DNA of 64,000 bases from the NCBI GenBank assembly GCA_902788175.1, contig CADAJF010000002.1, forward strand, positions 36,479-100,478. The letters run 5' to 3'. The notes beneath the pieces are model-generated. The model had not been told where the DNA came from. It did no database searches and was given only the letters and a program-made list of their open reading frames with translations. This DNA comes from an uncultured Bacteroidia bacterium. Its GTDB lineage: Bacteria > Bacteroidota > Bacteroidia > Bacteroidales > UBA932. Positions 20,527-64,000 of the stretch are shown piece after piece (position 1 is the first letter of the stretch; every line of letters starts with the position of its first letter). The position numbers were made by a program, and so were the translations under genes.

Positions 20527-20578
20527 CGTCCGCCTTCCTAAAGAAAGAATAGCTATCAATATTTATTACAAACATTGT

Positions 20579-38676: not shown

Positions 38677-38692
38677 CTTGGAATTGAACGCT

Positions 38693-40105: not shown

Positions 40106-42736
40106 TCAATACAGATTCCAGTAGGGAATCCGTTCCGGAGTAGAATCCAGGTATGGCAGCAAGCTCTCCGGAAGGAAACGGCGTTCCACAGCCATGCGGA
40201 ACATGTATGTACGCCACCAGTCCGCGTCCATGGCAGCCAGGCCGGAGTCCGTCCTGGTGTAGCCGAAACTGTTCTCCGAGACCCATTTGAGCGGTGTCCC
40301 GTCATCGGCCACGCTTACTCCGCACATCGCCATGGCGTGGGTGGAAACCGCACCGTAACTGAGGAACATCTCCCGCTTCTGCTGATGCACATTCACGCCC
40401 AGTTCGCTTTCCAGCGGATAGAGTCTCCTGCTGTAGAGGCCATCGTCCGGGGCGGCGTCTGCAGCGGTGTCTGCCGTGAAATAGAATTTCTGTCCGGCGG
40501 CCAGGGAGCGGATTCCAATCTGTTCCAGCTCTTCTGCAGGCAGGTTAAGGAAGGTCCAGTCAGGCGCGTCCACGGCTGCGCGGGAGCCTTCCACCGTGTA
40601 CATCCTGTAATAAGGACGGGACGGATCGTTCATGAGGATGGCGTACCCTTCCAGGGAAGGCATGAAATCCAGGGCGAAAGACTGCGGTGTATAGCTCTTT
40701 CCCGCATGGATAATCTCCTTGGGCGGAGTTCCCAGGGTGCTGCACAAAAGCCGGTACACCTGCCGGAGTGCAGCCTCCTTTACCGTATCCGGCTCGGTGG
40801 TTTCCCGCATGCGAAGGCCATAGTCCCTCAGAAGTGAACGGAGAGCCCTTAGCAGTTCCCCGCTGTTTTGGGAGCTATGGGTTTCCGGCATGGCCGCAGC
40901 CGGGACAGCCCCATATTTCCGAATCAGATAGGCCGCCTCCAGGAAATGCCCTCCGTCCCAGGTGGGACGACGGAAAATTTTCTCGTTATAGCGGGAATCC
41001 AGTGCCTCCTGCCGATGGTCCCACACTTCGCAGAGGAAAAGATTGGCCTTTTCCATCATGTCCCAGAAATAGGGATATACGACGGAAAACTCCATGGCTC
41101 CCCTGACGGCATTGGTAGTGGCGAAGTACCAGCATCGGCCAGAATTATTCTGGTCCAGGATGGAAGAATGGCCTACATAATACGTGAGCCCCTCCTCTGT
41201 AAGGCCGATATCCTTCCGCAAGGACGGAATCCCTCCTTCCAGAAACGGGGTGTCTCCGGCCTGGAAGGCCGATGGATCCAGCACCGTGGTCAAGGTCGCT
41301 GCCTCCTGGAACGGCGGCCGCCGGTTTCCCATCATGGGCTCGAAGACAAAATCGGGGCCGCGTCTCCGGAGGAACTCCGCGCGGACACGGTCCAGAAGTG
41401 CAGAATCCGTCATCAGCTCTACAGCCGACAAGTACAGGACTTTGGCGGCTCCCAGCGCCCCTTTGGTTCCGATTGTGGTCCCTGAACTGGCCACCTGCTG
41501 CCAACTGTGACCGACACCTCCCGGAACGAAACAGCTGTAGCGGAAACTGCCCGTCGGCACCGCCCAGGTTACATTCCCGACATCTGAAGAAACGTATGCC
41601 TCGTAGCCTTCCTCCGAAGGCGGTACCACTACCGAGAGCTTGTCAATCAAAGAAGCATCCGATCCGGAAACACGCGAAACCTCCCGGGCAAACTCCAGCT
41701 CGCGCTCGTCCAGACGGATGCCGCCCACCTGCCGGAGGGAACGATCCACCAGCCCGGCCATCTCGTCGTTGGGAAGGCGCTCGTAGTTACCGGAGACCAA
41801 CTCGTACTGCATGGTGGTCCCCGTCCCCATGGCAGCTCCTTCGGCCGCGCTCAGGGCCCGCTGAAGGATATCCTTCACGATGGTCCTGGACGGGCTCCGG
41901 AAGTAGTACTTCACGCTGGCTTTGTCCGGGACCACATTGGGTGCTTTTCCACCGTCGGTTATCACATAATGGATGCGGGAGGTCTGCGGCACATGTTCCC
42001 GCATCATATTCATCACATGATTGAACGCTTCCACCGCATCCAATGCCGATCGGCCGGCTTCCGGAGCCCCGGAAGCATGGGAGGACTGTCCGTGGAAAGT
42101 AAAGAGCACCTGCACGTTGGCAAGTCCGGAGGTCCTGTTCACGGTGTTCCGTGTATCCGGATGCCAGTCCAACATAGCGTCAAGACCCTCAAATACCCCC
42201 TCACGCATCATATAGGCCTTTCCGCCCCCACCCTCCTCGGCCGGGCAGCCGAAGAGTTTCACGGTGCCGGCATGTCCGCTTTCCGCCAGCCATTTCGAAA
42301 GCGCCACGGCTCCGGCCACCGACCCTGTGCCCAGCACATTATGGCCGCAGGCCTGCCCGGAAGCGCCGGGAACCAGCGGCTTCCGGTAAGGGACCGTATC
42401 CTGGCTCATTCCGGCTATGGCATCATATTCGGCCATCATGCCAATCACCGGCTTACCGCTTCCGTAGGTTGCCACAAAAGCCGTAGGGATCCCAGCCGCT
42501 TCCCTTTCTATGGAAAAACCCTGACTCTCCAGGAAAGAGGTCCACATGGCCACGCTCCTGAATTCCTTGTATCCCAGCTCCGCAAATTGGAAGATCTTCT
42601 TCTGCAGAGAATCATAGAGGGGGAAATGCGTGTCCAGATAACGGATTCCCCTGTCTGTCCGCGGCTTTTTCGCGGCCTCGAGAGGGAAGGACAGGGCCGC
42701 CAGAAGCAGGCAGCATGCAAAAAAACGTTTTTTCAT
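40106..42736 (-). CDS. Fusion of M20 (AbgB-like) amidohydrolase and C1B (bleomycin hydrolase-like) peptidase, secreted
   Basis: One 876-residue frame with a signal peptide (MKKRFFACCLLLAALSFPLEAA). Residues 25-480 are an M20 metal amidohydrolase of the AbgB group: EYDAIAGM, the metal ligands in QACGHNVLGTGS, CPAEEGGGGKAY and DWHPDT, and GVGHSW. Residues 500-876 are an aminopeptidase C/bleomycin hydrolase domain with the catalytic Cys in NNSGRCWYFAT (about 535), His in STHAMAMCGV and Asn in VSENSFGYT. Both active sites look intact. It would split N-acyl amides and shorten peptides in one polypeptide. It is the last gene of the cell-wall operon, 20 bp after the Ntn hydrolase gene. Confidence 0.85.
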   Translation of the reverse strand: MKKRFFACCLLLAALSFPLEAAKKPRTDRGIRYLDTHFPLYDSLQKKIFQFAELGYKEFRSVAMWTSFLESQGFSIEREAAGIPTAFVATYGSGKPVIGMMAEYDAIAGMSQDTVPYRKPLVPGASGQACGHNVLGTGSVAGAVALSKWLAESGHAGTVKLFGCPAEEGGGGKAYMMREGVFEGLDAMLDWHPDTRNTVNRTSGLANVQVLFTFHGQSSHASGAPEAGRSALDAVEAFNHVMNMMREHVPQTSRIHYVITDGGKAPNVVPDKASVKYYFRSPSRTIVKDILQRALSAAEGAAMGTGTTMQYELVSGNYERLPNDEMAGLVDRSLRQVGGIRLDERELEFAREVSRVSGSDASLIDKLSVVVPPSEEGYEAYVSSDVGNVTWAVPTGSFRYSCFVPGGVGHSWQQVASSGTTIGTKGALGAAKVLYLSAVELMTDSALLDRVRAEFLRRRGPDFVFEPMMGNRRPPFQEAATLTTVLDPSAFQAGDTPFLEGGIPSLRKDIGLTEEGLTYYVGHSSILDQNNSGRCWYFATTNAVRGAMEFSVVYPYFWDMMEKANLFLCEVWDHRQEALDSRYNEKIFRRPTWDGGHFLEAAYLIRKYGAVPAAAMPETHSSQNSGELLRALRSLLRDYGLRMRETTEPDTVKEAALRQVYRLLCSTLGTPPKEIIHAGKSYTPQSFALDFMPSLEGYAILMNDPSRPYYRMYTVEGSRAAVDAPDWTFLNLPAEELEQIGIRSLAAGQKFYFTADTAADAAPDDGLYSRRLYPLESELGVNVHQQKREMFLSYGAVSTHAMAMCGVSVADDGTPLKWVSENSFGYTRTDSGLAAMDADWWRTYMFRMAVERRFLPESLLPYLDSTPERIPYWNLY

Positions 42737-42756
42737 CTTAAGGAGTATCCAGGGGC

Positions 42757-43911
42757 TCAAGGGACTATCACTTCTTTCTTAAAGGCTTCAAAGCGCTGCA
42801 GGGCAGCAGCATTGTACTCTTTGACGGCCGCGAGGTCAAATCCGCTTCTGCGCATGCGAAGATCCAGGACTGAACCGTCCCGGAGTTCCGCTTTCTCATA
42901 ACGGCGGACGGCCTTCAGGATACGGCGGACATGCTTGACTTTCAGATACTTTTCACCACCTTCCCAGGGAAAGGCCCGGACACTTTTTTTCAGCTCCAGG
43001 GAGACCTGGTTGGCCTCTGATGTGACGGGGGCGGGCAGGTTGTCTCCGGCGGCCACCCACACCGCGACGGCATAACAGGATGGCGGCCATCCCACGGCAC
43101 ACCACATCATGCCGGAGGAGGGATCCTCTCCGGGTGCCACCCCTTCAATCACCACGGAAGCCACGCTGCAGTCACGGGCAATGAAATCGTGTTCGTTCAG
43201 GAGGCCGTCATAACGGAACCGCAATGCGTCGCCCCCCTGGAGCACATTGATGAAACTCCGGCCTTCCCGAAGGAAGAATCCCGCATCGAACTTTTTGGAG
43301 CCGCGTTTTTCCATACGCTTGGCGATGGTCTGGTAACGGACATAACCGCCGCCCGCATTCTCTTCGCCGGAAAGCGAAAAATTGGTCCTGTACAGATATC
43401 CTCCGGCCGGCACGTCAAAACGGACCCAGGAGGTGTCCGAGACTTCAAAATAGGCCGCTCCGCCATGCGCATCGATGACCGCAAAGTTGGCACTGATGCC
43501 CCGGGGCTGCTTCCAGGCATCCAGGAAGGCTGTAAAATCGGCCAGGGAGGAACATTCCGCAAGGGCTTTTGCCATGAGTTCCCCGTTCTGCGTGGGAGAA
43601 TCCAGCAGGGAGGGGAAATTATACGAGAGGTTGTTGGAGATGGCAAAACCCGCCTCGTTGATGCCCGAGTACGCCCTTGCATGCTGCGTATCGGTGGTGG
43701 CGAAAAGCGCCGTGTAAGCGTACTTCCCGCCCCGGATGTGCACCATGATGTTTTGCTCGTTGTCGGCGTCCCGCTGCTTCCAGATCAGGGGACGGCCGGT
43801 AGCGCTGGCCTCGGCCGATACGATGGCCGTAGTGCAGGCTGCCGCCCTGAGAGAAAAAAGAAGGGTAAGGAGCAGGGCGCTAACGCCGAATCTTGTAACC
43901 GTAGTATGCAT
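42757..43911 (-). CDS. Ntn-type linear amide C-N hydrolase (C45/C59-like), secreted
   Basis: A 384-residue protein. Cleavage of the signal peptide after RAAA would expose Cys26 (CTTAIVSAEAS), the N-terminal nucleophile expected of Ntn hydrolases such as choloylglycine and penicillin V acylases or C45 acyltransferases. Other family marks are RPLIWKQRDAD (the Arg/Asp pair), AYSGINEAGFAISNN and ISANFAVIDAHGGAAYFEV. It would cleave a linear amide bond. In this operon the likely substrate is an amide of the cell-wall peptide or amino sugar. The start overlaps the transporter gene by 32 bp. Confidence 0.78.
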   Translation of the reverse strand: MHTTVTRFGVSALLLTLLFSLRAAACTTAIVSAEASATGRPLIWKQRDADNEQNIMVHIRGGKYAYTALFATTDTQHARAYSGINEAGFAISNNLSYNFPSLLDSPTQNGELMAKALAECSSLADFTAFLDAWKQPRGISANFAVIDAHGGAAYFEVSDTSWVRFDVPAGGYLYRTNFSLSGEENAGGGYVRYQTIAKRMEKRGSKKFDAGFFLREGRSFINVLQGGDALRFRYDGLLNEHDFIARDCSVASVVIEGVAPGEDPSSGMMWCAVGWPPSCYAVAVWVAAGDNLPAPVTSEANQVSLELKKSVRAFPWEGGEKYLKVKHVRRILKAVRRYEKAELRDGSVLDLRMRRSGFDLAAVKEYNAAALQRFEAFKKEVIVP

Positions 43912-45070
43912 AGTACATGATTAACAGGTAAAAGGGGAGGCAGATCCAGTAGGCATTCTGCATGCCCAACCAGTCTTTCATGGCACCGAACAGGAGAGGA
44001 ATCAATGCCCCGCCGCCGATGGAGGCCACCAGGAGCGAGGAGCCCTTTCCAGTAAACTTCCCCAAATCCACGATGGCAAGGGGCCAGACTGCAGGATACA
44101 TCAGGGAGCAGGCAAAACTCAGGATGGCGACGCACCAGACCGATACGGCCGGAGGGGTGAGCACGATGGCCAGGGAATCGGCTACGGCCAACCAAGTGCA
44201 GATGCGAAGCGCCTGGACCTGCGAAATATACTTGGGAATACAAATAATGCCGATGATATATCCGGCCGCCATCCCTATACCGGGCCAGAGGGTGTATCTT
44301 TCGGGGTTGGCAAGACCCAGGCTCTGGGCATAGTCCAGCACGGTAAGGAGGGCCAGATTCTCCACCCCCACATAGACAAACAGCGCCAGGGCCCCGAGCA
44401 CAAGGTGAGGGAACTGCCAGAGGGAGGTTTTTCCGGCCGCATAGGGACAGTCTTCCTCGTTCTCCTCCCCTTGTGCCTTGATTTCTTCGAGCGGAGCGAA
44501 AAGCGTGATGATGCCCAGTATCACCACTACGGCCATGATGATATATAGAGGTAGGTTAAGATCGTTGAGCCCGACCGCCTCGATGGGTTTGCGCGTGACG
44601 GCGGCAATGAATACGGAGGGAAGACCGAGCGCTATGGAATTGCAGATGCCCATGATGCTGATTCTCCGGGCGGCCGAGTCTATGGGGCCGAGGATGGTCA
44701 CATAAGGATTGATGGCCGCCTGCAGCACCGTATTGGCCGTTCCGCTGATGAAACAAGCCAGAAGATACAGGGCAAAACTCTCCAGCCGGGCCGCCGGGAC
44801 AAAAAGGCCGAAAGCCACGGCAAACAGGAAAAACGAGAGCGACATGGTTTTCTTGTAGCCGATTCTTCCGATAATGGAAGAAGCCGGAAAACTGAACACC
44901 AGAAAAGCGGTAAAGGTGGCCGCAATGACCAGATAGGACTGGGTTGATGTCAGGTTCAGGTTGTTTTCCAGGAACGGGACGAAATACCCGTTGATGCCGG
45001 TAGCGAACCCCACCGTGAAAAACATGCTGCCGATAAAGGCCAGCGGAAGGATATACTTGTTTTTGGGCAT
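43880..45070 (-). CDS. MFS sugar transporter (FucP/NagP-like)
   Basis: A 396-residue inner-membrane protein with about 12 hydrophobic segments. The start MPKNKYILPLAFIGSMFFTVGFATGINGYFVPFLE and GRIGYKKTMSLSFFLFAVAFGLF are typical of the FucP/NagP branch of the major facilitator family, H+-driven importers of fucose, GlcNAc and other free sugars. It stands between the BadF-type kinase and the Ntn hydrolase (6-bp gap and 32-bp overlap), so the imported sugar is probably the amino sugar phosphorylated by that kinase, GlcNAc or MurNAc. Confidence 0.88.
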   Translation of the reverse strand: MPKNKYILPLAFIGSMFFTVGFATGINGYFVPFLENNLNLTSTQSYLVIAATFTAFLVFSFPASSIIGRIGYKKTMSLSFFLFAVAFGLFVPAARLESFALYLLACFISGTANTVLQAAINPYVTILGPIDSAARRISIMGICNSIALGLPSVFIAAVTRKPIEAVGLNDLNLPLYIIMAVVVILGIITLFAPLEEIKAQGEENEEDCPYAAGKTSLWQFPHLVLGALALFVYVGVENLALLTVLDYAQSLGLANPERYTLWPGIGMAAGYIIGIICIPKYISQVQALRICTWLAVADSLAIVLTPPAVSVWCVAILSFACSLMYPAVWPLAIVDLGKFTGKGSSLLVASIGGGALIPLLFGAMKDWLGMQNAYWICLPFYLLIMYYAYYGYKIRR

Positions 45071-45076
45071 GGCTTA

Positions 45077-45925
45077 TTACGGAGTGGTATGATACTTCAC
45101 AAGTCCGTCCATAGGGGCCTTCAGGATGGTTCCCATCTTCATTCCATAACGTTCTGCCACGGGCTGCAGAAGCGCTTGGAAATAGTAGGCCACGGAACCT
45201 ACTGCGTTGAGGGCGTATTTCCGGTAGTCGGGGTAATGCGTGACAATACGGTCGAAGAACTTGGTGAAAGAATCTGTCACCAGTTCCGGAAAATAAGGGT
45301 CTGCGTCCAGCTGCTCGTTGATGAACTTGGCGTACTGTGCACAGAAACGGTTGGGGAAAGGTTTGGTATAGATGGTATCAATGAGCTCCTCTCCGCTCAT
45401 TCCCAGCTTCTTCCCCACCATTTCATGGACCTTCGCGGGCATGTTGCCACGGATGTAGTCCGTAATCAGGCGTTTTCCCAGGTATCCGCCGCTTCCCTCG
45501 TCGCCGAGGATGAAGCCGCAGGAATCTATGTTAAGTCCCTCGTTACATCCGTCATACAGGACAGAATTGGCACCCGTTCCCAGAATGGCGGCAAAACCGG
45601 GTTCCCGCTGAAGGAGGGCACGGCAGGAAGCCAGGGTATCCATGGCCACAAACACTTTCCCGGCCATGGGGAACACCTGCAGGAGCGTACGTTCCATGAA
45701 AGGGTACTGCATGGGGGTTACACCGGCACCATAAAAGGCCATCTCCGTGACACGGCCGGTGTCGAAGCCGGAAGGAAGGCAGGCAAGGATGTCGGCCACA
45801 ATGTCTGCTCCGGAGATGTAATTGGGATTGTACCCCTGTGAATAAAAATCCTGGCGGCCGGTGCCGTCCGGGTTCACGCAGCACCACTGGGTTTTGGTGG
45901 CACCGCTGTCGGCAATCAGTATCAT
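45077..45925 (-). CDS. BadF/BcrA-type amino-sugar kinase (GlcNAc or MurNAc kinase-like)
   Basis: A 282-residue ATPase of the actin-like fold. The phosphate-1 motif is ADSGATKTQW, the phosphate-2 region AILGTGANSVLYDG, followed by GFILGDEGSGGYLGKRLI. Bacteroidetes kinases of this type phosphorylate GlcNAc or, in Tannerella, MurNAc (MurK). The operon also has a MurQ-like etherase and an MFS transporter, the same trio used to salvage MurNAc. I infer that it makes the 6-phosphate that MurQ needs, but the sugar specificity cannot be fixed by sequence alone. Confidence 0.8.
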   Translation of the reverse strand: MILIADSGATKTQWCCVNPDGTGRQDFYSQGYNPNYISGADIVADILACLPSGFDTGRVTEMAFYGAGVTPMQYPFMERTLLQVFPMAGKVFVAMDTLASCRALLQREPGFAAILGTGANSVLYDGCNEGLNIDSCGFILGDEGSGGYLGKRLITDYIRGNMPAKVHEMVGKKLGMSGEELIDTIYTKPFPNRFCAQYAKFINEQLDADPYFPELVTDSFTKFFDRIVTHYPDYRKYALNAVGSVAYYFQALLQPVAERYGMKMGTILKAPMDGLVKYHTTP

Positions 45926-45928
45926 AGG

Positions 45929-46822
45929 CTATTCTTCTTTAATTCCATGAAGGTCGGGGAGTTCTCCCAGGCCGTAGCGGAAAAGGACCACTCCCGAAGC
46001 TTTGGAGCGCCTGACAAACATCCTGGCATCGTTCCTGATTTTCTGCGCGCTCATGGGAACCACCTGCGTGGTGTCGTTGTCTTCATATGTGGTGATGCCG
46101 GCCCATACCTTGGCGGGGGCACCCCGGGTGGCAAAATGATCGGCCGCCGAAAGGGCCCACTCGGCGCCGTGGGGACGATAAGAGTCGCAGTGGTAATAAA
46201 TCATGGGCATGAGGATGTCCAGATACTGCCCCATCTGTGAGGGGTCCTGCCCGTAATAGTGCTCGCTGTCCGGCTCCGGCATCAGGGCTGCCGACAGGAC
46301 AATCCGGGGATTCATGGCCCTCAGGGCCTCGCTGATCTGGCGGCAGAATTCCGTCACGCAGCCCGTAGCGGTGATTTCTTCGGAGGGATTATGCTTGTGG
46401 GCGGTGCCGCCGAAACGGATATAATCGAGGTGGATGCCGTCCACGCCCAGGCTCACATAATGCCTGGCCCGCCCGATAACCTCGTCAAAATATTCCTGTT
46501 TGTAGCGATTGTTCTCATCGTCAACAGGATTGATCCACTTGCCGTCTTTGTAGAAACACTGGAACCAGATGTGAACCTTCATTCCCTTCTGCCGGGCACG
46601 CCGGACGAAGGCCATGGTCGAATCTTCCCCGTGGTTTTTGAACGCCACCTCGTGAAGGATGATATTGCCGATATCCTTGGACGCCAGCGTGTCCAGATTC
46701 ACCTCGTTCATGTATTTGGACCACAGCCAGATTCCATTGGTATTGGTATCGGCTTCCGGGGTTCCGTGGGCACAGGACAGCACCATGGCCGCCAGTGACA
46801 GGGCTGCTAACAGTTTTTTCAT
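45929..46822 (-). CDS. GHL10-like putative glycoside hydrolase, lipoprotein
   Basis: A 297-residue lipoprotein (MKKLLAALSLAAMVLSC) made of one TIM-barrel-like domain: GIWLWSKY, GMKVHIWFQCFYKDGKWINP, VDGIHLDYIRFGGTAHKHN (acidic putative active site), SAALMPEPDSEHYYGQD, DILMPMIYYHCDSY and VVLFRYGLG at the end. It is a close paralog of the C-terminal part of the protein at 51018-52367. A GHL10 relative in E. coli, DigH, cleaves peptide-free peptidoglycan strands, which fits this operon. Gaps to both neighbours are 3 bp. Confidence 0.72.
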   Translation of the reverse strand: MKKLLAALSLAAMVLSCAHGTPEADTNTNGIWLWSKYMNEVNLDTLASKDIGNIILHEVAFKNHGEDSTMAFVRRARQKGMKVHIWFQCFYKDGKWINPVDDENNRYKQEYFDEVIGRARHYVSLGVDGIHLDYIRFGGTAHKHNPSEEITATGCVTEFCRQISEALRAMNPRIVLSAALMPEPDSEHYYGQDPSQMGQYLDILMPMIYYHCDSYRPHGAEWALSAADHFATRGAPAKVWAGITTYEDNDTTQVVPMSAQKIRNDARMFVRRSKASGVVLFRYGLGELPDLHGIKEE

Positions 46823-46825
46823 AAA

Positions 46826-47902
46826 TTAGAACTCAAGTTGATTGTAACGGCCGTTGAAGGTTTCCATTCCTTTCCACTTGGGGGTACCCCAGGTGGAGTC
46901 GTTGTTGGTAGGGTCGGCGATCCACCACTTCCCGTCTGCATAGATTTCGGGGATTACGTGTCCGGTCACGCTGGAATAATAGCACTGCCCGTGCAGGTAA
47001 CGGGCCGGAATTCCGCTGGCGCGGCACATGGCCACCGTGGCGTGGGTCAGGTCACAGCAGTTGCCGCCTTTGGCCTTGATGGTTCCCACGGCACCCTTCC
47101 TGGTATTCATGTAGTTTTCCCATTCCCATGCGTCGCGGGCGTACTTGTAGATGGCTTCGGCCTTCTGGCGGTCGGTGGCATCGGCGGGAAGGCCTTTGAT
47201 CGCTTCGTCCCGGGCGGCAATCACCACCGGGTCGTCAATGGGACAGTTGGAGACAGAACCCAGGTAGGAGGCGGGCCAGGCAGACACTTTTTCAGGAAGT
47301 ACGCCTTCGTTTTTTACAAAGTAGTTGAACACCCGGGTCAGGACCACCATGGAAGTTACCAGGTTCATCAGATTGTCGTGCCTGGTAACCACCATCGTAA
47401 GCTGCGGCATATAGCCTTCGGCCGAAGGATCCGTGGACGGGAAAGTGACATAGTTGGGCAGTTGATGCTCGCTGCGGGCAGGGTCCTGCGAATATGCCAG
47501 AAGCCTTTTTGCCAGATAGAAGACATGGGGCATGTCAATCTCGTCGGGATCGTAGGTGTTCCAGCGGTATTCGCTGCCGAAAGCCACGGGGAATGGATCC
47601 ACATCCTCCTCCTGCCAGGTGTCGGGATTAGCCTGGATCTTTTCCAGGAGCATGCAGGCCGCCAGGGTATATTTCCCCTTGGAGTAGGACAGACCCTCCA
47701 CATTCACCGTCACGGGAAGGGATCCGGTCTTCTCGAACTCGTCGTAGGCATCGGAAAGGGCCTGTGCAAAATGGCCGTTGTAGCTGTCCAGGGTGAACTT
47801 CGGCGGTTCCGGGTCGGGGTCTTTGTTCTCATTGTTCTTGCCACAGGTGCAGACGCAGGCGTTCACAATGGCAACGAGGGTAATTAAGACGTACTTTTTC
47901 AT
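46826..47902 (-). CDS. Transglutaminase-like peptidase with pseudomurein-binding-like repeats, lipoprotein
   Basis: A 358-residue lipoprotein (start 47902; MKKYVLITLVAIVNAC; ATG 47917 also possible). Three segments near 45-90, 125-170 and 186-220 carry the pattern of pseudomurein-binding repeats, a helix followed by LPxxVxV, for example YDEFEKTGSLPVTVNV, HQLPNYVTF and NYFVKNEGVLPEKVSAW. The C-terminal domain is transglutaminase-like with Cys282 (GGNCCDLTHA), His315 (TGHVIPE) and Asp330 (WIADPT). The same architecture is known from pseudomurein endoisopeptidases PeiW and PeiP of methanogen phages. I infer an isopeptidase acting on wall peptides; which wall is open. Confidence 0.68.
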   Translation of the reverse strand: MKKYVLITLVAIVNACVCTCGKNNENKDPDPEPPKFTLDSYNGHFAQALSDAYDEFEKTGSLPVTVNVEGLSYSKGKYTLAACMLLEKIQANPDTWQEEDVDPFPVAFGSEYRWNTYDPDEIDMPHVFYLAKRLLAYSQDPARSEHQLPNYVTFPSTDPSAEGYMPQLTMVVTRHDNLMNLVTSMVVLTRVFNYFVKNEGVLPEKVSAWPASYLGSVSNCPIDDPVVIAARDEAIKGLPADATDRQKAEAIYKYARDAWEWENYMNTRKGAVGTIKAKGGNCCDLTHATVAMCRASGIPARYLHGQCYYSSVTGHVIPEIYADGKWWIADPTNNDSTWGTPKWKGMETFNGRYNQLEF

Positions 47903-47958
47903 TGTTCCAGGTTTCATTGGCAGCGGAAGGGACGGTCAGGCCCCTCCCGCCGAAAAAC

Positions 47959-50979: not shown

Positions 50980-51017
50980 TGGCATTTGTGTTAGTTTGGG
51001 TTAATGTATCAATATTT

Positions 51018-53194: not shown

Positions 53195-53207
53195 GGTTCA
53201 GATATAG

Positions 53208-56846: not shown

Positions 56847-58180
56847 TGGTCTTTCAATGTTTCACGAATGGTTTCCAAAACGCCCTCGCGGTAGATGGAA
56901 GGCATTTTTTCTGACAGGGGATAGGGAGCTTTGATGTAAACGTGCATCTGCTCGATTTCATACTCATAGCCCTTGCGCACCTGGAAGGCATGCTCGGAGG
57001 GAAGATAGGAATTCTGGCCGTTGGTGTAGCCGGCAAAGAACAGCTTGTTTTGCGGGAACGCTGCACGGGCTTCCATCTGATATTCGCAGAACGGCTCTCC
57101 GTCGGAGAAGAAGAACACCACGCCGTTCAGGTTCACGCCGTGAAGATGGAAACGCAGTCTGGAAGGGACTTCCCCGGTCTTGAAACGCTCGAGAATCTCC
57201 TCCTTCCAACCCTGCACGTCATCGGCGAAACGCGGGAAAACGGTTTTGGCGGCGGCGCTCAGGGAATCGGCGTGGCGGATGACAGCCTCGGGGGTCACCT
57301 TGTCCACCTGGTAAGGCAAGTCCACCGTGCGGTTCACAAGGGTGAGCAGGTTCTTTTCGGGAACGGTCTCCAACGGGATGTCCCGGATGGCGTCGGCCAG
57401 CTCTTTTCCGCATTGCTCGGCGTAATCCACTGTCTTGGGACCCTCCGCAGGATCAATGTTGCCCTGGGCGCCTGAAAGCTGGAACACTTCCCCGCCCCAG
57501 GCTTCCTGAAGAAAGCGGGCCGCGACGCCGGGATAGTCCGACGACAGAAGATAACTGGAAGGGCCCATGCTGACAGGATGGCAGGCGTAGTTTACAATGG
57601 AAACAACGGGACTTCCGTCCTGGAAAAAACGGGCCACATAGACGTCCCTGTCCACAGGTCCGTCCTTTTCGCAGCGATTGCCGTTGATGTTGCTCTCACC
57701 CTTCCCCACCTTCATAACGAAAGGTTTTCCGGGGGCCTGGATATTCCTGACCGCATTGGAGACCACCGCTTCCACCATCCTTTCCTTCCAGGCCCGGTTG
57801 GTGCCGCCGGTGTAATTGGAGGCACCGCCGGAGCGGGGAGCGGAATGGGTATGGGTATTATGCATGAGGATGTTCTCTTTGGGAAGGCCGGAGCGCTCCG
57901 AGATCAGGGTGAGCATGGTATCGGCTATCGCCGGGGAGATTTCCATAAGGTCGTTGGAAATGATGCACAGCTTCTTGGTCCCGTCTCCCAGCACCATGCA
58001 GTGGGTGTAAAGAGGAAGATGGATTCCGTCAGAGAGCTTGCTCCTGGCCGCGAAACCGGCCAGCACCATGTGCTCTTCAGGCGTTCCGGAGATATCGGCC
58101 GACGAATAACTCAGGGTGAGACCCTCCCGGCAGGAGAGGGCCGTCACCATGAGCATCATCATGAAAAGCAGTCGTTTCAT
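56843..58180 (-). CDS. Neutral/alkaline ceramidase-like amide hydrolase, lipoprotein
   Basis: A 445-residue lipoprotein (MKRLLFMMMLMVTALSC) matching the N-terminal catalytic domain of neutral/alkaline ceramidases. The zinc and substrate-handling motifs include DLMEIS, HNTHTHSAP, VDRDVYVARF and NYACHPVSMGPSSYLLSSDYPGVAARFLQE. It lacks the ceramidase C-terminal beta domain. Ceramidases cleave an N-acyl amide of a sphingoid base; bacterial relatives in glycan loci probably cleave other amides. In this operon an N-acetyl or lactyl-peptide amide is a plausible target. It sits between susD (3-bp gap) and the GH20 genes. Confidence 0.75.
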   Translation of the reverse strand: MKRLLFMMMLMVTALSCREGLTLSYSSADISGTPEEHMVLAGFAARSKLSDGIHLPLYTHCMVLGDGTKKLCIISNDLMEISPAIADTMLTLISERSGLPKENILMHNTHTHSAPRSGGASNYTGGTNRAWKERMVEAVVSNAVRNIQAPGKPFVMKVGKGESNINGNRCEKDGPVDRDVYVARFFQDGSPVVSIVNYACHPVSMGPSSYLLSSDYPGVAARFLQEAWGGEVFQLSGAQGNIDPAEGPKTVDYAEQCGKELADAIRDIPLETVPEKNLLTLVNRTVDLPYQVDKVTPEAVIRHADSLSAAAKTVFPRFADDVQGWKEEILERFKTGEVPSRLRFHLHGVNLNGVVFFFSDGEPFCEYQMEARAAFPQNKLFFAGYTNGQNSYLPSEHAFQVRKGYEYEIEQMHVYIKAPYPLSEKMPSIYREGVLETIRETLKDQ

Positions 58181-58183
58181 CTT

Positions 58184-60169
58184 TTATTCAGGATATCCGG
58201 GATTCTGGACAAGGTTGCTTCCGCTCTTGGTAATCTCGTTGCGCGGGATGGGCATGAGATAGTTGCGGCCATCCTCGGGGAAGTAGCGGGGCGTAGGATT
58301 CTGGTTCAGGATACAGTCGCCATAGTCGATGGTATATTCCTTGCCAAGCCACTTGTATGTAACGATGTACTCGATGGGCTTGTCGTAGCGGGGATCGCTG
58401 GTATAGCCGGAATAATGGTAGGTTTTGGAAGCGGGAGTATTGCCCCAGTAATAGTTGGTATTGTTCCGGGCCGGATCGTACAGGCGGGCCACACGATAGA
58501 TGGTATCCATCTGGGCGCCGTTGGCAAGGACCATGGTTTTGGCGCTGGCCAGGGGCACGTTCTCATAGAAATCGGCCATCTTCCAGCGGCGAAGGTCGAA
58601 GTAGCGGAAGGTCTCGGCATAGAGCTCCACGCGGCGCTCGTTCACCAGGCGGTCCCACAGGTTGTCTCCGGTTTCCGTCACTTCCGGCATCATCACGTCC
58701 GGACGGCGGCGGATTTTGTTGATATAAGCGCGGCAGGTGGCCTCGTCTCCGAGCCGATAGGCTGCCTCGGCCAGGTTCAGGTACATCTCGGCCAGGCGGA
58801 ACCAGGGATACAGGAGGGTTCCGGTCTGGGACTCAGATATATACGAGGTAGGGATGTACCACTTGTACAATTCCAGGCCGCCATGGTTGCCGGAAGCGGT
58901 GTGTTTGGCCTTGGAGGAATAACCGGGCTCTTCCGGATTGGTGGACAGAAGGAAATCTGCGCGGGTCATGCCGTCGTACTGGTAGTACAGCAGAAGGGCG
59001 TCCTCCCTGGCAGCGCCGTCCTTGTCGCAGTAGGCATACGGATAGAACGGGGCGGCAATGCAGTAATAGAAACGGGGGTCGCGGTTCTTGTAGGGGTGCT
59101 TCTCGTCGTAACCGGAGCCCTCTTCAAACCACTTCTTTCCATTGACCATTTCAAAGTCAATCTGGGCGGCTTGGGTGGGATGGAAGGCCTCCCAGCCATT
59201 GAAATACTCCGCTGTGTAGAGAAGCTGGGCTTTTTTGGTGTAGTTGTCGTCTGCATCGGAAGTGGCGATGAAATACTTGGCCCAGATAAGTTCCGGGGAG
59301 TCCACGTCCTTCCAGAAACCGTCATACGTATCGTCCAGGGAATAGGCACCGTCCACATCGGCACGGTCCACGATGGCCTTGGCGGCATCGAAAGCCCTTT
59401 TCCATTTGTCGGCACTGTAAGCGCCCCGGAAGATGCTGCCCTGCGGATGGGCAGGGTCGTTGAACAGGGGCGAGGCGGCCACCAGGGTCAGACGGCTTCT
59501 GAGGGCCAGGACGATGTCTTTGTTGATGCGTCCCTTCGCGCACTTGTCCTTCCCGGGGAGAAGATCGTAAGCGGTGTCCAGTTCCCCGAGGATGAAGTCC
59601 ACGCAGTCGTCGAAATTGGCGCGGGTCACTACGAAGTCATCGTCCAGGCTGTGGGGCTTGGTGATGAGCGGAACGCCCGCATAACGCTGGATCAGGAGGA
59701 AGTAAGACCAGGCGCGGAGGAAATGGACCTCGCCCATAAGGCGGGTTTTGCCTTCTTCGGTCAGGGCGGTTTCGTGCTCCTGGATGTATGACAGGAAATA
59801 ATTCATCCGGTAAATCCACTGGTAGGTGCGGTTCCAGATGTTGAGGATGGTGGTTCGGGTGTTGTGCGCCTGACCGCCTTCGTTGCTGTACATCACATTG
59901 TCGGGATCCATGAAACCGGATGCGATGTAACGGGTGGATGTTCCTCCGTAACGGAAATAACCTTCATCGGTAATGCAACCCACGTTGCCCTCCTGATAAG
60001 GATCCGGAAGGACTGTGTAGAGTGCATTCACGTAGGATTCGGCCAGGGCGTCTGAATTGAAGACGGCATCTTCGCTGAGCTTGTCAAGCGGCGTCTTGTC
60101 CAGAAAACCGTCTTTGCAGGCGGTAAGAGCAAAGGCCGCGAATATCAGAATACCTATATACTTTTTCAT
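58184..60169 (-). CDS. SusD-family glycan-binding lipoprotein
   Basis: A 661-residue surface lipoprotein (MKKYIGILIFAAFALTAC), longer than average for SusD. Family marks are the N-terminal KDGFLDKTPLDKLSEDAVFN, GEVHFLRAWSYFLLIQRYAGVPLIT (TPR helices) and the C-terminal WFRLAEMYLNLAEAAYRLGD with NERRVELYAETFRYFDLRRW. It would bind the imported oligosaccharide and close the SusC pore. Inserts rich in aromatic residues around 300-480 may form an unusual binding face. It follows susC by 13 bp. Confidence 0.95.
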   Translation of the reverse strand: MKKYIGILIFAAFALTACKDGFLDKTPLDKLSEDAVFNSDALAESYVNALYTVLPDPYQEGNVGCITDEGYFRYGGTSTRYIASGFMDPDNVMYSNEGGQAHNTRTTILNIWNRTYQWIYRMNYFLSYIQEHETALTEEGKTRLMGEVHFLRAWSYFLLIQRYAGVPLITKPHSLDDDFVVTRANFDDCVDFILGELDTAYDLLPGKDKCAKGRINKDIVLALRSRLTLVAASPLFNDPAHPQGSIFRGAYSADKWKRAFDAAKAIVDRADVDGAYSLDDTYDGFWKDVDSPELIWAKYFIATSDADDNYTKKAQLLYTAEYFNGWEAFHPTQAAQIDFEMVNGKKWFEEGSGYDEKHPYKNRDPRFYYCIAAPFYPYAYCDKDGAAREDALLLYYQYDGMTRADFLLSTNPEEPGYSSKAKHTASGNHGGLELYKWYIPTSYISESQTGTLLYPWFRLAEMYLNLAEAAYRLGDEATCRAYINKIRRRPDVMMPEVTETGDNLWDRLVNERRVELYAETFRYFDLRRWKMADFYENVPLASAKTMVLANGAQMDTIYRVARLYDPARNNTNYYWGNTPASKTYHYSGYTSDPRYDKPIEYIVTYKWLGKEYTIDYGDCILNQNPTPRYFPEDGRNYLMPIPRNEITKSGSNLVQNPGYPE

Positions 60170-60182
60170 AATCTAGTCGCCT

Positions 60183-63100
60183 TTATTTGGATGATTGGGA
60201 TGCAGGGGCCTTCTTGGGAGCCGCGAAGGAAACCTTTACGCCGAAGTTGTAGATTCTTACCTGCGGATAGGTCTGATACCCTTCATCGCTGGTTTCCGGG
60301 TCCACATACTTGAGTTCGGAGAAGGTGAGGAGGTTGTAACCGGCCACATACAGGCGGATATCCCTGACTCCGGAACGCTCTCCGAAGATGCGGCCGGGAA
60401 TGGTATAGCCCAGTTCCACATTCTTCAGGCGCAGGAAGGCGGCGTTACGGGAGTAGTAGTCCGAGCGGTTTACGCCGCCGTTGCTCACCGTGGAGCCGAT
60501 TCTGGGATAGTCGGAAGTGGGGTTGTCGAGGGTCCAGGCGTTGGTGGCGGCAAAATGGTCGAGGTTGCCGGACACAGGATCCATCATGGGAGAGTAGTAG
60601 TAGCGGGCAAGGGCCTGTCCCTGCAGGAGGATGGAAAGGTCGAAGTTCTTCCAGTAGAAATCTCCGCTGAGGCCGAAGACCATCTGGGGAACGGATGTGC
60701 GGTCCAGGCGGTAACGGTCCAGGTTGGTGATCTGGCCGTCCCCGTCAAGGTCGTTGAACCAGAAATCACCCAGGGTGGCTCCGCTCATCTGCGGACGGCT
60801 ATCCAAGTCTGCCTGCGTTTTGTTGATACCTCCCACGCTGTAATACAGGCTGGAACCCATGGGGGTACCTTCCAGTTTCATGTAGTCGTGCCCCTCGGGC
60901 CAGGGGGTCTCGTCCATATAGACAATGGTATTCCTGGCATACATCACGTTGCCGTGCACCCTGTAGCGCAAATCGATTCCGGGAATGCGGTACTCGTGGT
61001 TCATCTGGAATTCCACACCCTTGTTGTTCACGATACCGATGTTCTCGTCGGGCAGGCTGTTGGTAAGACCCGTGTAATAAGGGACGGAGGCATTTCTGGT
61101 ACACAGAATGTTGGAACGGTTGGTGTAGAAGGCTTCCAGTTCCCATCCGAACAGACCGTTGCTGACAGTACCGTCCAGACCTACATTCCAGGTACGGGCC
61201 ACTTCCCAGGTGACGTTGGGGTTGGGAATGGCGCCGGGAATGATGTAGTTCACTTCCTTGCCGTCGAACATGGTCTTGTAGGAATAGGCCGACGTGTAAC
61301 CGTAGGTGGTCATGTACTGGAACGGGGCAATCTGGTCGTTACCCTGTTCACCGTAAGAAGCGCGAAGCTTGAGGTTGGTCAGCCAGGGCCAGTTGTCCTT
61401 GACAAAGTTTTCTTCTGAGATACGCCATCCAACGGACACGCCGGGGAAAATACCCCAGCGCTTGGCGGCCGGGAAATTTTCGGAGCCGTCGAAGCGGACG
61501 AGGGCCTGGAAGAGGTATTTGCTCTTGTAGTCATATCCTGCGCGGCCGAAGAAAGAGCGCCTTGCCGTCTCGCGCGCGTAACCGTTGATGGAGTACCAGC
61601 TCTTGTCTGCGGTTCCGGCAAACAGTTCGTCCAGAATGTCGGAGGAGTAGTTGTTGATGCCGGCCCTGAGGTAATCCAGGCGGTAGGAATTCTGCTCGAA
61701 TCCGGCAAGGGCCGAAACGTGGTGGCCGTTGAAGTCCCGGTCATAATTGATGTTGGCGTTGAGGGCCAGGTTCTTGCTGTGGCTCTGGCTCTCGTGCAGC
61801 ACCGGAGTGGGCCAGTAGGAGTTGGAACGCTCCTCGAACGTTTCGGTGATCTCGTCATAGGACCAATAGTTCCAGTTCTGCTGCCAGTTTTTCTTGAAGT
61901 TGCTTACCAGGTCATAGGCCAGGTGACCGTTCACGGAAAGGCCCTTGGTGATGAAACCCAGGTCCCAGTTGGCCGTGAAGGTGGTATTCACCGTATTGAT
62001 GGTGGTACGGTCGTAACCGGTGAGGTCCTGGACAAGGACGGCGGGATTGGTGCCGCCGCGAAGGTATCCGTTGGGGAAATAGGCCGCGCCGGTGGGACGC
62101 ATCCGCATGGCAATGTAGAAGATACCGTACGAGTCGCTGGGGAAGGCGGAATAGTTCTTGTGCTGCTGACGGGCGTTGATGTCAATCCCCAGCTTGAGCC
62201 GGTCCGTCACCTGGATGTCCAGGTTGGAGCGGAGGTTGTACTGGTTGTAATTGGTGGCACTCTTGTGGTAAATACCGTCCTGGTACTGGCCGTTGAACTG
62301 CACGAAGTAGCCTATCCTTTCGGAGCCGCCGTTGATGCTCACCCCATACTTGTGCTGGAAGGAGGCCGGCTTGATGATGGTTCCCAGCCAGTCCGTGTTG
62401 GGATAGGAGATGGGATCGTCCTGGTCGATGTAATGCTGCACCTGGGTGTCGTTGTACACGGGAGCGCCGCCGCTGATGGCCAGGCTCTTGTTGTAGGCTG
62501 TAGTGTACAGGACGGCATCGGCCAGTTTCACCAGCCGGGTGGGCTGCTGGACACCGAGGTCATAGCTGAAGGTAACCTTGGGAGCCTCGTTGTATTTGCC
62601 GCGCTTGGTGGTCACGAGGATAACACCGTTGGCCGAGCGGGCACCGTAGATGGCAGCCGACGCGTCCTTCAGGACGTTCACGCTTTCGATTTCGTCACCG
62701 GTCAGGCGGCCGAATTCGTCTCCTCGTCCCTGAACGCCGTCGATGATGATCAGGGGGCTGTTGTCTCCCAGGGTGGAGCGGCCTCGGATGTACATGACGG
62801 CGTCGTCACGGCCGGGTTCGCCGGAACGGTTGTTCACGATGACACCGGACATACGGCCGGCCAGACCCTGCGAAAGGTTGACGGAGGAGTTTTTCACAAG
62901 TTCTTCGCCGGTGGTGGAGGCCACGGAGCCGGTAAGGGTTACTTTCCGCTGGTTGCCGTATCCTATGGCAACCGCCTCCTCGAGGATCTGGGAGTCATCC
63001 TCCAGCACAAAATTCACGACCGTGCGGCCGCCGACTTTTTCGGAGGATTCTCTGTAACCCAAAAGACTGGCAACCAGTGTTGCCTCGGAAGGAATGCCGG

Positions 63101-63308
63101 TAAGGGAGTACTTACCGTCCAAGCCTGTCATGGCGCCCTTGCTGGAACTGCCCTGGACATAAACCATGGCGCCTGCTATAGGCTCTCCTTTGGTGTCCAC
63201 CACCGTTCCGCGGACGCTGACGGCACCTTCTTTCTGCGCATTGGCAGTGCCGGACGGCAAAGTCAGCACCATGCACATCAGAAGCATCAGGATGTTTTTT
63301 ATACGCAT
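60183..63308 (-). CDS. SusC-family TonB-linked outer-membrane transporter
   Basis: A 1041-residue transporter, first gene of the 14-gene cell-wall operon. After the signal peptide comes the CarboxypepD_reg domain (VRGTVVDTKGEPIAGAMVYVQGSS), the plug (LAGRMSGVIVNNRSGEPGRDD, IIIDGVQGRGDEFGRL, VNVLKDASAAIYGARSANGVILVTTKRGK) and the barrel. It imports glycan fragments together with the SusD protein, powered by TonB. A consensus promoter lies 30-60 bp upstream and an AgaR-like operator about 80-100 bp upstream. Confidence 0.95.
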   Translation of the reverse strand: MRIKNILMLLMCMVLTLPSGTANAQKEGAVSVRGTVVDTKGEPIAGAMVYVQGSSSKGAMTGLDGKYSLTGIPSEATLVASLLGYRESSEKVGGRTVVNFVLEDDSQILEEAVAIGYGNQRKVTLTGSVASTTGEELVKNSSVNLSQGLAGRMSGVIVNNRSGEPGRDDAVMYIRGRSTLGDNSPLIIIDGVQGRGDEFGRLTGDEIESVNVLKDASAAIYGARSANGVILVTTKRGKYNEAPKVTFSYDLGVQQPTRLVKLADAVLYTTAYNKSLAISGGAPVYNDTQVQHYIDQDDPISYPNTDWLGTIIKPASFQHKYGVSINGGSERIGYFVQFNGQYQDGIYHKSATNYNQYNLRSNLDIQVTDRLKLGIDINARQQHKNYSAFPSDSYGIFYIAMRMRPTGAAYFPNGYLRGGTNPAVLVQDLTGYDRTTINTVNTTFTANWDLGFITKGLSVNGHLAYDLVSNFKKNWQQNWNYWSYDEITETFEERSNSYWPTPVLHESQSHSKNLALNANINYDRDFNGHHVSALAGFEQNSYRLDYLRAGINNYSSDILDELFAGTADKSWYSINGYARETARRSFFGRAGYDYKSKYLFQALVRFDGSENFPAAKRWGIFPGVSVGWRISEENFVKDNWPWLTNLKLRASYGEQGNDQIAPFQYMTTYGYTSAYSYKTMFDGKEVNYIIPGAIPNPNVTWEVARTWNVGLDGTVSNGLFGWELEAFYTNRSNILCTRNASVPYYTGLTNSLPDENIGIVNNKGVEFQMNHEYRIPGIDLRYRVHGNVMYARNTIVYMDETPWPEGHDYMKLEGTPMGSSLYYSVGGINKTQADLDSRPQMSGATLGDFWFNDLDGDGQITNLDRYRLDRTSVPQMVFGLSGDFYWKNFDLSILLQGQALARYYYSPMMDPVSGNLDHFAATNAWTLDNPTSDYPRIGSTVSNGGVNRSDYYSRNAAFLRLKNVELGYTIPGRIFGERSGVRDIRLYVAGYNLLTFSELKYVDPETSDEGYQTYPQVRIYNFGVKVSFAAPKKAPASQSSK

Positions 63309-63337
63309 GTTTAATAAAATTGGTTATGGGTCTTTGG

Positions 63338-63368
63338 CAAAGATATGTATAATATTTTCGTTTGGCAA
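63338..63368 (-). promoter_or_regulatory. Promoter of the susC-led cell-wall operon
   Basis: On the minus strand TTG (63366-63368), a 20-nt spacer and TATCTTTG (63338-63345) match the Bacteroidetes consensus. Transcription should start about 35 nt before the susC ATG. Confidence 0.75.
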
Positions 63369-63386
63369 GTGTTTTGTCTAACTTTT

Positions 63387-63405
63387 TTTCGTTTTGTTTC
63401 GTTTT
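63387..63405. promoter_or_regulatory. AgaR-like operator between susC and the DeoR-family regulator gene
   Basis: TTTCGTTTTGTTTCGTTTT fits the TTTCRTTTYRTTT core described for AgaR, a DeoR-family amino-sugar regulator of E. coli. A further GTTTTGT copy begins at 63371. It lies between the two divergent promoters, next to the gene for a DeoR-family protein, so that protein probably binds here. Confidence 0.55.
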
Positions 63406-63426
63406 GTCAGAAAAAGCAACGCCAGC

Positions 63427-63457
63427 TTTGACGAATCAAAAAAAATAATTACCTTTG
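63427..63457 (+). promoter_or_regulatory. Promoter of the DeoR-family regulator gene
   Basis: TTTG (63427-63430), a 19-nt spacer and TACCTTTG (63450-63457) match the consensus exactly, 25 bp before the ATG. Confidence 0.7.
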
Positions 63458-63482
63458 ATTCTGATTCCTCAAACAGCACAGA

Positions 63483-64000
63483 ATGACCACCATCGCCGAA
63501 AGAAGAAAATTCATTCTTGACAGCATTTTCAAGGACGGATTCGTAAAAGTCGCAAATCTGGCCGATGTCCTCCAGGTCACCCAGGCCACCATCCGCAAAG
63601 ACCTCACCCACCTTGAGAACGAGGGCCTGTTGTACCGGGCTTACGGCAGCGCCATGCCCACTTCGCCACACGTAATGGACATCAACCTGAACACCAAGCG
63701 CCTCATCAATTTTAAAAAGAAGGAAAGAATTGCCAAAAAAGCCGTGGAACTCCTGGCCGAGAACGACTCCATCCTCATGGGTGCCGGCTCCACCGTTCAG
63801 GTTATGGCGGAGACGCTCAAGCCCAAAGGACGGCTCAATGTAGTAACACCCGCGGTGAACGTCGCCATTGCCCTGGGAGACATGTCCGGCGTGTCCGTGA
63901 TGCAGCTGGGCGGGATCCTCTACGGAAACTCGATGTGCGTTATCGGCACGGAAGCCAAATCCATGCTCCAGAACCTCCAGTGCACCAAGCTTTTTTTTGG
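63483..64000 (+). CDS. DeoR-family transcriptional regulator (5' part)
   Basis: The first 172 residues are present; the rest runs off the window. An N-terminal winged helix (ERRKFILDSIFKDGFVKVANLADVLQVTQATIRKDLTHLENEGLLYRAYG) is followed by the DeoR sensor domain (NFKKKERIAKKAVELLAENDSILMGAGSTVQ, NVVTPAVNVAIALG, VMQLGG). The family senses phosphosugars. It is divergent from the susC operon, whose kinase and MurQ-like enzyme would make amino-sugar phosphates, and an AgaR-like operator lies between. I infer that it represses the operon until such a phosphosugar accumulates. Confidence 0.88.
   Translation, partial: MTTIAERRKFILDSIFKDGFVKVANLADVLQVTQATIRKDLTHLENEGLLYRAYGSAMPTSPHVMDINLNTKRLINFKKKERIAKKAVELLAENDSILMGAGSTVQVMAETLKPKGRLNVVTPAVNVAIALGDMSGVSVMQLGGILYGNSMCVIGTEAKSMLQNLQCTKLFF

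Follow-up and report, generated by a model that had tools for sequence, protein, structure and literature searches.

The stretch of DNA analyzed here, referred to as the window, spans 64 kb (G000:C2:36479-100478) and runs to the terminus of contig C2, which stops at 100478, in a Bacteroidales assembly of 2.09 Mb in 58 contigs with an estimated completeness of 84.5%. It contains a 14-gene operon, which is real and conserved and has its own regulator, and which may serve to utilize pseudomurein, the wall polymer of gut Methanobacteriales. All 14 open reading frames (ORFs) lie consecutively on the minus strand from 63308 down to 40106 (window positions, as throughout), with an intergenic spacing of -32 to +41 bp, in agreement with the short gaps and overlaps reported in a preliminary description of this DNA.

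The operon begins with a SusC-type TonB-dependent outer-membrane transporter (60183-63308; TIGR04056, 856.6 bits) and, adjacent to it, a SusD-type surface-binding lipoprotein (58184-60169; PF07980, E = 8.2e-44). Together with the degrading enzymes that follow, including two of glycoside hydrolase family 20 (GH20), this pair provides the gene content of a SusC/SusD-type polysaccharide utilization locus (PUL), as had been proposed. The next gene encodes a ceramidase-like amidase with a lipoprotein-type N-terminus (CerN; 56843-58180; PF04734, E = 5.4e-16), in which the HTHSA and CHP motifs are presumably metal ligands and which is a candidate for cleavage of the sugar-peptide amide. It is followed by GH20 beta-N-acetylhexosaminidases a (55047-56846; PF00728, E = 4.2e-106; GGDE at 321) and b (53208-55046; lipoprotein-type N-terminus; PF00728, E = 2.1e-121; GGDE at 335), and by a MurQ-type etherase of a distinct subtype (52364-53194), with GAGTGGK and not GAGTSGR. 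The preliminary gene order holds up to this point, after which it has to be corrected: the next four genes encode GHLa (51018-52367), a 1008-residue lipoprotein-type protein with BACON (E = 1.2e-8) and repeat regions (47959-50985), the transglutaminase-like protein (46826-47917) and GHLb (45929-46822). The remaining genes encode a BadF-type amino-sugar kinase related to MurK (45077-45925), which lies below the Pfam cut-off (E = 0.11) but is clear from its homologues in the PDB (E = 9.2e-64 to 2.3e-51), a NagP/GluP-like sugar transporter of the major facilitator superfamily (MFS; 43880-45070; TIGR01272, 212.7 bits, above the cut-off; NF046060, 268 bits, below the cut-off of 625), a C45-type Ntn amide hydrolase (42757-43911; PF03417, E = 6.4e-7; NF040521, 58 bits, below the cut-off of 85) and an M20 amidohydrolase-C1B aminopeptidase fusion (40106-42760; PF03051, E = 3.1e-71; M20_dimer, E = 2.8e-10; TIGR01891, 230.6 bits), the last two with signal-peptide-like N-termini. 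A GHL10-like protein, GHLc (38678-40099, plus strand; PF02638, E = 5e-9), lies convergent to the operon and outside it, and is likely to be an accessory.

The 174-bp gap ahead of susC (63309-63482) is a divergent promoter region. The pattern TTG-N-TAnnTTTG, which we take as the Bacteroidetes promoter consensus, was searched for on both strands and occurs at 63338-63368 (minus strand) ahead of susC and at 63427-63457 (plus strand) ahead of the divergent deoR; it is absent from both strands inside 40106-63308, so that the internal promoters that might have spoken against a single operon were not seen as far as this pattern goes. The own regulator that had been claimed is present as a DeoR-type gene truncated by the contig end (63483-63998, plus strand; PF08220, 50.1 bits at C2:99979-100131, above the cut-off), and the assembly, 84.5% complete, has no other HTH_DeoR match at E ≤ 0.001; a phmmer search of the PDB gave no match to it. 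Orthologues adjoin susC in genome G096 (69% identical) and lie a few kb past the 3' end of the operon in genome G114 (63% identical). The window contains three exact AAACGAAA sites, at 63356-63363, 63387-63394 and 63397-63404. Three sites in 64 kb are not unusual, since 22 of 100 shuffles reach this number, and the notable part is their clustering: because all three fall within the susC/deoR gap, they fit a role as candidate DeoR operators. A minus-strand ORF opposite deoR (63378-63998), without a Pfam match, was dismissed as a chance ORF. Scans for sigma-70 promoters (13 against 9.9 in shuffles, s.d. 2.5) and terminators (29 against 20.3, s.d. 5.1) were not used as evidence, and Rfam matched nothing in 36000-64000. 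The usual regulators of PULs are hybrid two-component or extracytoplasmic function systems. The locus resembles Bacteroidetes PULs in combining SusC/SusD, lipoprotein-type proteins and exo-glycosidases in one operon, whereas its DeoR regulator, its peptide-cutting arm and its putative archaeal wall target set it apart.

The transglutaminase-like protein is of lipoprotein type and consists of repeats resembling the pseudomurein-binding repeat (PMBR), followed by a cysteine peptidase of the transglutaminase fold (PF01841, E = 9.7e-19). PF01841 was matched by 41 of 41 family members, in which C287/C288, H320 and D335 (motifs NCCDLTH, GHV and ADPTNN) are invariant and would form the C-H-D triad of transglutaminases. 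When 50,697 phage records were searched with this peptidase, nine matched at E ≤ 1; the best was Methanobacterium virus Drs3 (34.5%, E = 7e-22), which infects Methanobacterium formicicum and in which the matched gene is annotated as 'pseudomurein-binding repeat protein', and the second was vir080, a virus assigned to Methanobacteriales (E = 3e-8). These two viruses account for two of the nine records each, and none of the remaining five does better than 1e-4. In 72,556 plasmid records, generic transglutaminases reached 9e-7 at best over a quarter of the query (among 15 of 26 matches listed). An hhalign comparison of the 41 locus peptidases with the Drs3 protein gave E = 2.3e-37 over 254 columns, covering residues 19-300 of the 300 in Drs3 and thus both the binding and the catalytic parts. 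The Drs3 protein itself contains a transglutaminase core and three Pfam PMBR repeats, and its match to C71 falls marginally short of the cut-off; a PDB search gave weak matches to PeiP (E = 0.0028) and PeiW (E = 0.1).

To separate the repeats from the catalytic core, the comparison was restricted to residues 1-150 of Drs3, its PMBR part, with 60 shuffles each. The N-terminal half of the peptidase scored 43.6 (E = 1.1e-6; best shuffle 17.6) and the N-terminal part of the 1008-residue protein 36.5 (E = 2e-5; best shuffle 17.7), and a later repeat region of the latter, which was not shuffled, scored 25.9 (E = 0.0024); GHLa, GHLb and the catalytic half of the peptidase stayed at or below 14.9. The 1008-residue protein also matches the transglutaminase-like family (E = 2.5e-19) and is a candidate wall-binding protein. 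The Pfam PMBR model (PF09373) was found at E ≤ 10 in 25 of the 41 peptidase family members, mostly weakly (best E = 1.7e-6), and in none of 26 GHLa sequences; in the genome of the window itself its match (E = 1.26) lies outside the locus. No Pfam PMBR was found in the window copy of the 1008-residue protein or for 44 members of its family (among 25 of 33 families listed). A tree built from 28 catalytic domains, among them those of 14 of the 41 locus peptidases, places Drs3 with these 14 at moderate support (82/96), apart from ten generic transglutaminases, vir080 and PeiP/PeiW. A predicted model of the peptidase (pLDDT 74) has PeiP as its first fold match in the PDB (E = 1.6e-6, 331 columns), ahead of 3isr, a Cytophaga cysteine protease (E = 1e-4); the latter is a real but generic match to the core. 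SAKe proteins, which matched the peptidase in the PDB by sequence only, look like low-information matches and were set aside. A PHROGs search gave nothing convincing; scans of viral contigs with A3, Drs3 and vir080 found no relatives, and two loci found with PeiW were not used. A tblastn search of the phage records with the 1008-residue protein gave weak matches, with no named methanogen virus among the 20 of 22 matches listed.

Like PeiW and PeiP (family C71) and the Drs3 protein, the locus peptidase places N-terminal PMBR-type repeats ahead of a C-H-D cysteine peptidase of the transglutaminase fold; unlike them, it is a bacterial lipoprotein-type protein inside a utilization operon, and it has no sequence match to PeiW or PeiP. 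From its sequence, it is a candidate pseudomurein endoisopeptidase.

GHLa and GHLb are candidate backbone glycosidases. Both match DUF4015 (PF13200) and were not borne out as the 'two GHL10 enzymes' of the preliminary description, since GHL10 appears only in GHLb and there only at E = 0.016. GHLb, a DUF4015 TIM barrel with a lipoprotein-type N-terminus, passes the gathering score (38 against 27 bits, E = 1.4e-9). The lipoprotein-type GHLa combines a lamin-tail-like (LTD) domain with a DUF4015-like TIM barrel, an assignment made at family level: the window copy scores 16.3 bits against DUF4015, under the cut-off of 27, and its LTD match is also below the curated cut-off, while both domains are found at E ≤ 10 in all 26 aligned sequences (best E = 1.6e-9 and 9e-8). 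A GH18 match occurs in two of the 26 (best E = 8.7e-5). The GHLb model (pLDDT 91) is a TIM barrel with Cwp19 as its best match in the PDB (E = 5.7e-10, 13-14% identity). A GH18 chitinase comes next, and SleL and GH191 are also among the 50 matches listed. Asp133 and Glu183, which lie at or just past the ends of two barrel strands and are invariant in 26 sequences, are candidate catalytic residues. The two proteins share the TIM barrel of Cwp19, DigH and other GHL10/DUF4015 cell-wall glycosidases, from which GHLb differs by its low identity to Cwp19 and GHLa by its added lamin-tail-like domain. One adhesin-like protein of M. smithii has a 'putative glycosyl hydrolase domain', according to an extract of PMC11532034. 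This is Pfam's wording for DUF4015, and the two are probably the same family.

The sugar branch of the operon departs from known N-acetylmuramic acid (MurNAc) enzymes. The locus MurQ scores 239.4 bits against TIGR00274, below the equivalog cut-off of 302, and 287.5 bits against NF003915, above the cut-off of 168. A copy passing the TIGR00274 cut-off exists in 30 of 59 family genomes; the ordinary-type MurQ that the window genome carries on contig C3 (288.2 bits) falls short as well, so that failure of the locus protein is a weak test. A comparison of 28 locus-type with 31 ordinary MurQs from genomes of the same family found 27 positions that differ, each fixed at more than 85% per group, with the substitutions S70G (in the GAGT loop), P83N and R104V among them. 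E80 and E111 (DVLE, EEAEDD), which we take to be the catalytic glutamates (E83 and E114 of Escherichia coli), are retained. In MurK, Ser133-Pro134-Leu135 make room for the lactyl group, according to the portion of PMC10465942 that was available, and the numbering of that paper agrees with that of PDB chain 8oqw, which is presumably MurK. The locus kinase has DSC at these positions, as do 33 of the 34 relatives from the loci (the exception has DSL), and Met at the position of Thr94, before the catalytic Asp, as in 34 of 34; it thus lacks both the Ser-Pro-Leu lactyl pocket and this Thr. This change is no proof against MurNAc as a substrate, because the MurNAc kinase paralogue K1058 departs at 133-134 and still takes MurNAc (PMC10465942, same portion).

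The carrier, kinase and etherase correspond to what we take to be the MurT-MurK-MurQ salvage set of Tannerella forsythia, and salvage of that type had been proposed for this locus. They differ in the MurQ subtype, in the altered lactyl pocket and in their setting, a SusC/SusD operon that includes wall-cutting enzymes. The match to NF003915 speaks for the earlier proposal, but because the locus MurQ and kinase differ from MurNAc enzymes, and with an ordinary MurQ elsewhere in the genome, plain MurNAc salvage appears doubtful. Judged by sequence, both enzymes look adapted to another 3-O-substituted amino sugar.

Other Bacteroidales, in which a search for the same gene order had been proposed, also carry the gene set. 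In 199 genomes of the same family, the transglutaminase-like protein matched 11 at a threshold of 1e-5, six of them (including its own) over both protein halves and five over the common transglutaminase core alone (28-31%). Among 395 phylum-wide genomes there was no match at 1e-20 besides the genome of the window. A profile scan of an 84,980-species collection yielded 62 pattern stretches and 40 confirmed loci on 39 contigs, two loci sharing one contig and five apparently repeating contigs of the 199-genome search. Neighbours were counted up to 10 kb on each side of the peptidase, with many contigs cut, and comprise GHL-type proteins in 38 loci (GHLa and GHLb being counted jointly because their profiles cross-match), the repeat protein in 37, BadF in 34, the MFS carrier in 30, GH20a in 29, GH20b in 29, MurQ in 27, C45 in 24, M20-C1B in 19, CerN in 13, SusD in 11, GHLc in ten, SusC in four and DeoR in one; the low counts of SusC, SusD and DeoR, at the 5' end of the operon, arise because the flanks are cut. 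Only L047 and L068 lack a GHL protein, and in the genome of the latter (taken as G096) GHLa and the first half of the operon lie on another contig. Of the 199 genomes, eight have GHL-type proteins (profile A7, E ≤ 1e-15): six of six with the peptidase and two of 193 without (Fisher p = 3.5e-10). G107 and G118 have GHLa alone, and the copy found in G096 is GHLa. Around the GHL genes of G140 and G154, the two without the peptidase, no other locus gene was seen in the 14 and 8 kb taken; a truncated locus is possible in G154 because its gene sits near a contig end.

A gene of the sodium/glutamate-symporter type occurs in 17 of the 40 loci by motif strings (one copy being confirmed as PF03616, Glt_symporter), between C45 and M20-C1B in the cases read; the window is without it. 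In G114, a NagB and PIG-L fusion gene follows the carrier, and L046 has a gene of the same size. The loci come mainly from Bacteroidales of ruminant and other herbivore guts: record titles give ruminant, reindeer or horse gut for 15 of 40, a further 11 bear RUG codes, which we take to mean rumen, and 14 are uninformative or undecoded. On one contig of RGIG2770, loci L048 and L069 hold two copies of the peptidase and L048 has two SusC/SusD sets, which suggests a duplication of the locus. In G096, locus L117 (contig C22) has murQ and the kinase split off and divergent from deoR-susC, the remaining order being kept to the contig end.

The peptide stems of pseudomurein contain glutamate. Passages of two papers (PMC4592898, PMC12996149) describe the polymer as N-acetylglucosamine (GlcNAc) or N-acetylgalactosamine (GalNAc) beta-1,3-linked to N-acetyltalosaminuronic acid (NAT), with peptides of L-amino acids only that are joined by gamma and epsilon bonds. 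The GH20 enzymes, the C1B aminopeptidase and the glutamate-uptake genes of the relatives fit this sugar and these all-L, glutamate-containing stems. We give about an even chance to the reading, drawn from sequence comparison, that the operon is a PUL through which Bacteroidales utilize the pseudomurein wall of gut Methanobacteriales. The earlier proposal of a microbial cell wall cut at glycan, amide and peptide bonds is retained as the most likely one; pseudomurein had been named there as one of several walls, and it is now singled out. From the computed homology, conservation, promoter layout and co-occurrence we infer the localization, the substrate, every reaction and their order. The 1008-residue lipoprotein and SusD would hold wall material, whose peptide cross-links would be opened by the PMBR-bearing peptidase in the manner of PeiW and PeiP, and GHLa and GHLb would cleave the glycan backbone. 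SusC would take in the fragments; the two GH20 enzymes would remove terminal GlcNAc or GalNAc, and the ceramidase-like amidase, the C45 hydrolase and the M20-C1B peptidase would dismantle the all-L peptides. The MFS carrier, the kinase and the MurQ-type lyase would convert the leftover 3-O-substituted amino sugar to GlcNAc-6-phosphate, with DeoR controlling the single operon promoter. As a speculation, the MurQ variant would beta-eliminate NAT from O-3 of GlcNAc-6-phosphate.

A number of results weigh against this reading. The window copy of the peptidase has no Pfam PMBR match, and with single sequences four of ten peptidases gave E values of 0.001-0.006, below the Pfam cut-off, and six none; a direct PMBR search of the 199 family genomes was uninformative, with E ≤ 1 in 129 of them, none above the cut-off and chance-level matches down to E = 0.004. 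PMBR domains also bind lysozyme-treated bacterial spheroplasts, as stated in an extract of PMC3124540. The peptidase matches PeiP by sequence only at E = 0.11, and the halves of PeiP and PeiW gave E = 0.011 or worse in one comparison; the 41 family members together match 24 families, but not C71 (PF12386). Of the marks of C71, the triad is present and the N-terminal PMBR is seen at family level; because the sequence match is lacking, the peptidase was not filed in C71 and is described as possibly PeiW/PeiP-like in action. The fold match to PeiP is local, given a TM score of 0.25 and an r.m.s. deviation of 17 for a model of pLDDT 74. In the tree, vir080 lies outside the group of locus peptidases and Drs3, and Drs3 is a long branch with an open position inside it; the function of the Drs3 protein itself rests on annotation. 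A phage search with GHLb gave three weak matches and no methanogen virus, and no enzyme for NAT was recognized. Finally, three genomes (G003, G034 and G052) have close relatives of the locus MurQ, kinase (DSL in all three) and GH20; within the 20 kb taken, none of the three has the peptidase, the repeat protein, GHLa or GHLb. This module is hence not tied to this wall, and the sugar branch may serve more than one polymer or an unrecognized common one.

The most serious rival is bacterial peptidoglycan, from rumen bacteria digested by the host or by protozoa, which we consider somewhat unlikely as the polymer. The PMBR-transglutaminase would then be a murein endopeptidase, GHLa and GHLb would act as DigH and Cwp19 do, and MurQ, the kinase and the carrier would salvage MurNAc. 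The set shared with T. forsythia would be explained directly, as would the NF003915 match of MurQ with its presumed catalytic glutamates. The best fold match of GHLb is Cwp19, published as a lytic transglycosylase according to the title of PMC6016235, with SleL another, and both the spheroplast binding of PMBR (PMC3124540, in extract) and the lack of a match between the peptidase and PeiW/PeiP would be accommodated. However, MurQ and the kinase depart from MurNAc enzymes at conserved positions while an ordinary-type MurQ lies elsewhere in the genome, the nearest relatives of the peptidase found outside Bacteroidales are viruses of Methanobacteriales, and at E ≤ 0.01 the 14 proteins match none of the murein-specific Pfam families (amidase_2/3, NlpC/P60, lysozymes and GH171). 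On balance, the support is stronger for archaeal pseudomurein than for bacterial murein.

A GlcNAc/GalNAc-rich host or dietary glycan (mucin, N-glycan, chitin oligomers or sphingolipid-linked glycans) is a distinctly unlikely target. Here the locus would centre on the GH20 enzymes, and the wall-like proteins would have been recruited for binding or trimming, which would agree with the two GH20 genes, the ceramidase-like amidase, the GlcNAc-type carrier and the GH18 matches of GHLb and of two GHLa sequences, and also with the three related operons without the peptidase (L110, L111 and L112), which retain GH20, MurQ and BadF, together with CerN in one and the MFS carrier in two. It would leave unexplained the PMBR-like repeats in two proteins, the C1B/M20 peptide arm, the glutamate symporter of relatives and the co-occurrence of the peptidase with GHL proteins, and no sulfatase, sialidase, fucosidase or GH18 was found in the 14 proteins at E ≤ 0.01. 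Very unlikely, in our view, is a non-nutritional role of the peptidase and repeat proteins in attachment to, or competition with, methanogens, the sugar genes being passengers. PMBR next to transglutaminase domains is indeed the architecture of some adhesin-like proteins of M. smithii and Methanosphaera (PMC11532034, in part), but a single operon without an internal promoter pattern unites these genes with SusC/SusD, exo-glycosidases, a kinase and a transporter, and most of the set recurs in the 40 loci.

The principal methanogens that use hydrogen in ruminants are Methanobacteriales. Their wall, as noted in a passage of PMC4592898, withstands lysozyme and other hydrolases of bacterial walls. 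The portions of the cited papers available here present Pei-type peptidases of methanogen viruses and proviruses as the wall-opening enzymes, and the corresponding part of a review of PeiW and PeiP (PMC2989375) names no backbone glycosidase. No description of a locus of this type was found among the papers listed in searches of the open-licence PubMed Central literature, bioRxiv not being covered. The full claim, that this would be the first bacterial locus for consuming an archaeal wall, that GHLa and GHLb would be the first pseudomurein backbone glycosidases and that the MurQ variant would be a lyase eliminating NAT rather than acting on MurNAc, is unlikely to hold in all its parts. If it does, MurQ chemistry would extend to a lyase-type cleavage of a beta-1,3 glycosidic bond, and such utilization gene sets to a new type of polymer; rumen Bacteroidales would recycle methanogens or prey on them. 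Any bacterial locus that broke down this wall would show the fate of archaeal wall carbon and nitrogen in the gut and would provide candidate pseudomurein glycosidases for the study of methanogen walls.

Some minor observations concern the related operons and the rest of the window. G034 and G052 share a C45-C1B fusion, a GHLc fusion and an extra neighbour gene, the G034 copy of which matches N-formylglutamate amidohydrolase narrowly above the cut-off. In the window, LptF/LptG and both methionyl-tRNA formyltransferase domains share a single ORF at 33944-36418 (plus strand). A divergent gene pair at 17060-20383 (minus strand) and 20516-23863 (plus strand) encodes large outer-membrane beta-barrel proteins that match the same Pfam families, the first of these genes adjoining a BACON protein gene at 15005-17041. 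A GH92 glycosidase gene lies at 5459-7663 (plus strand), distant from the operon.

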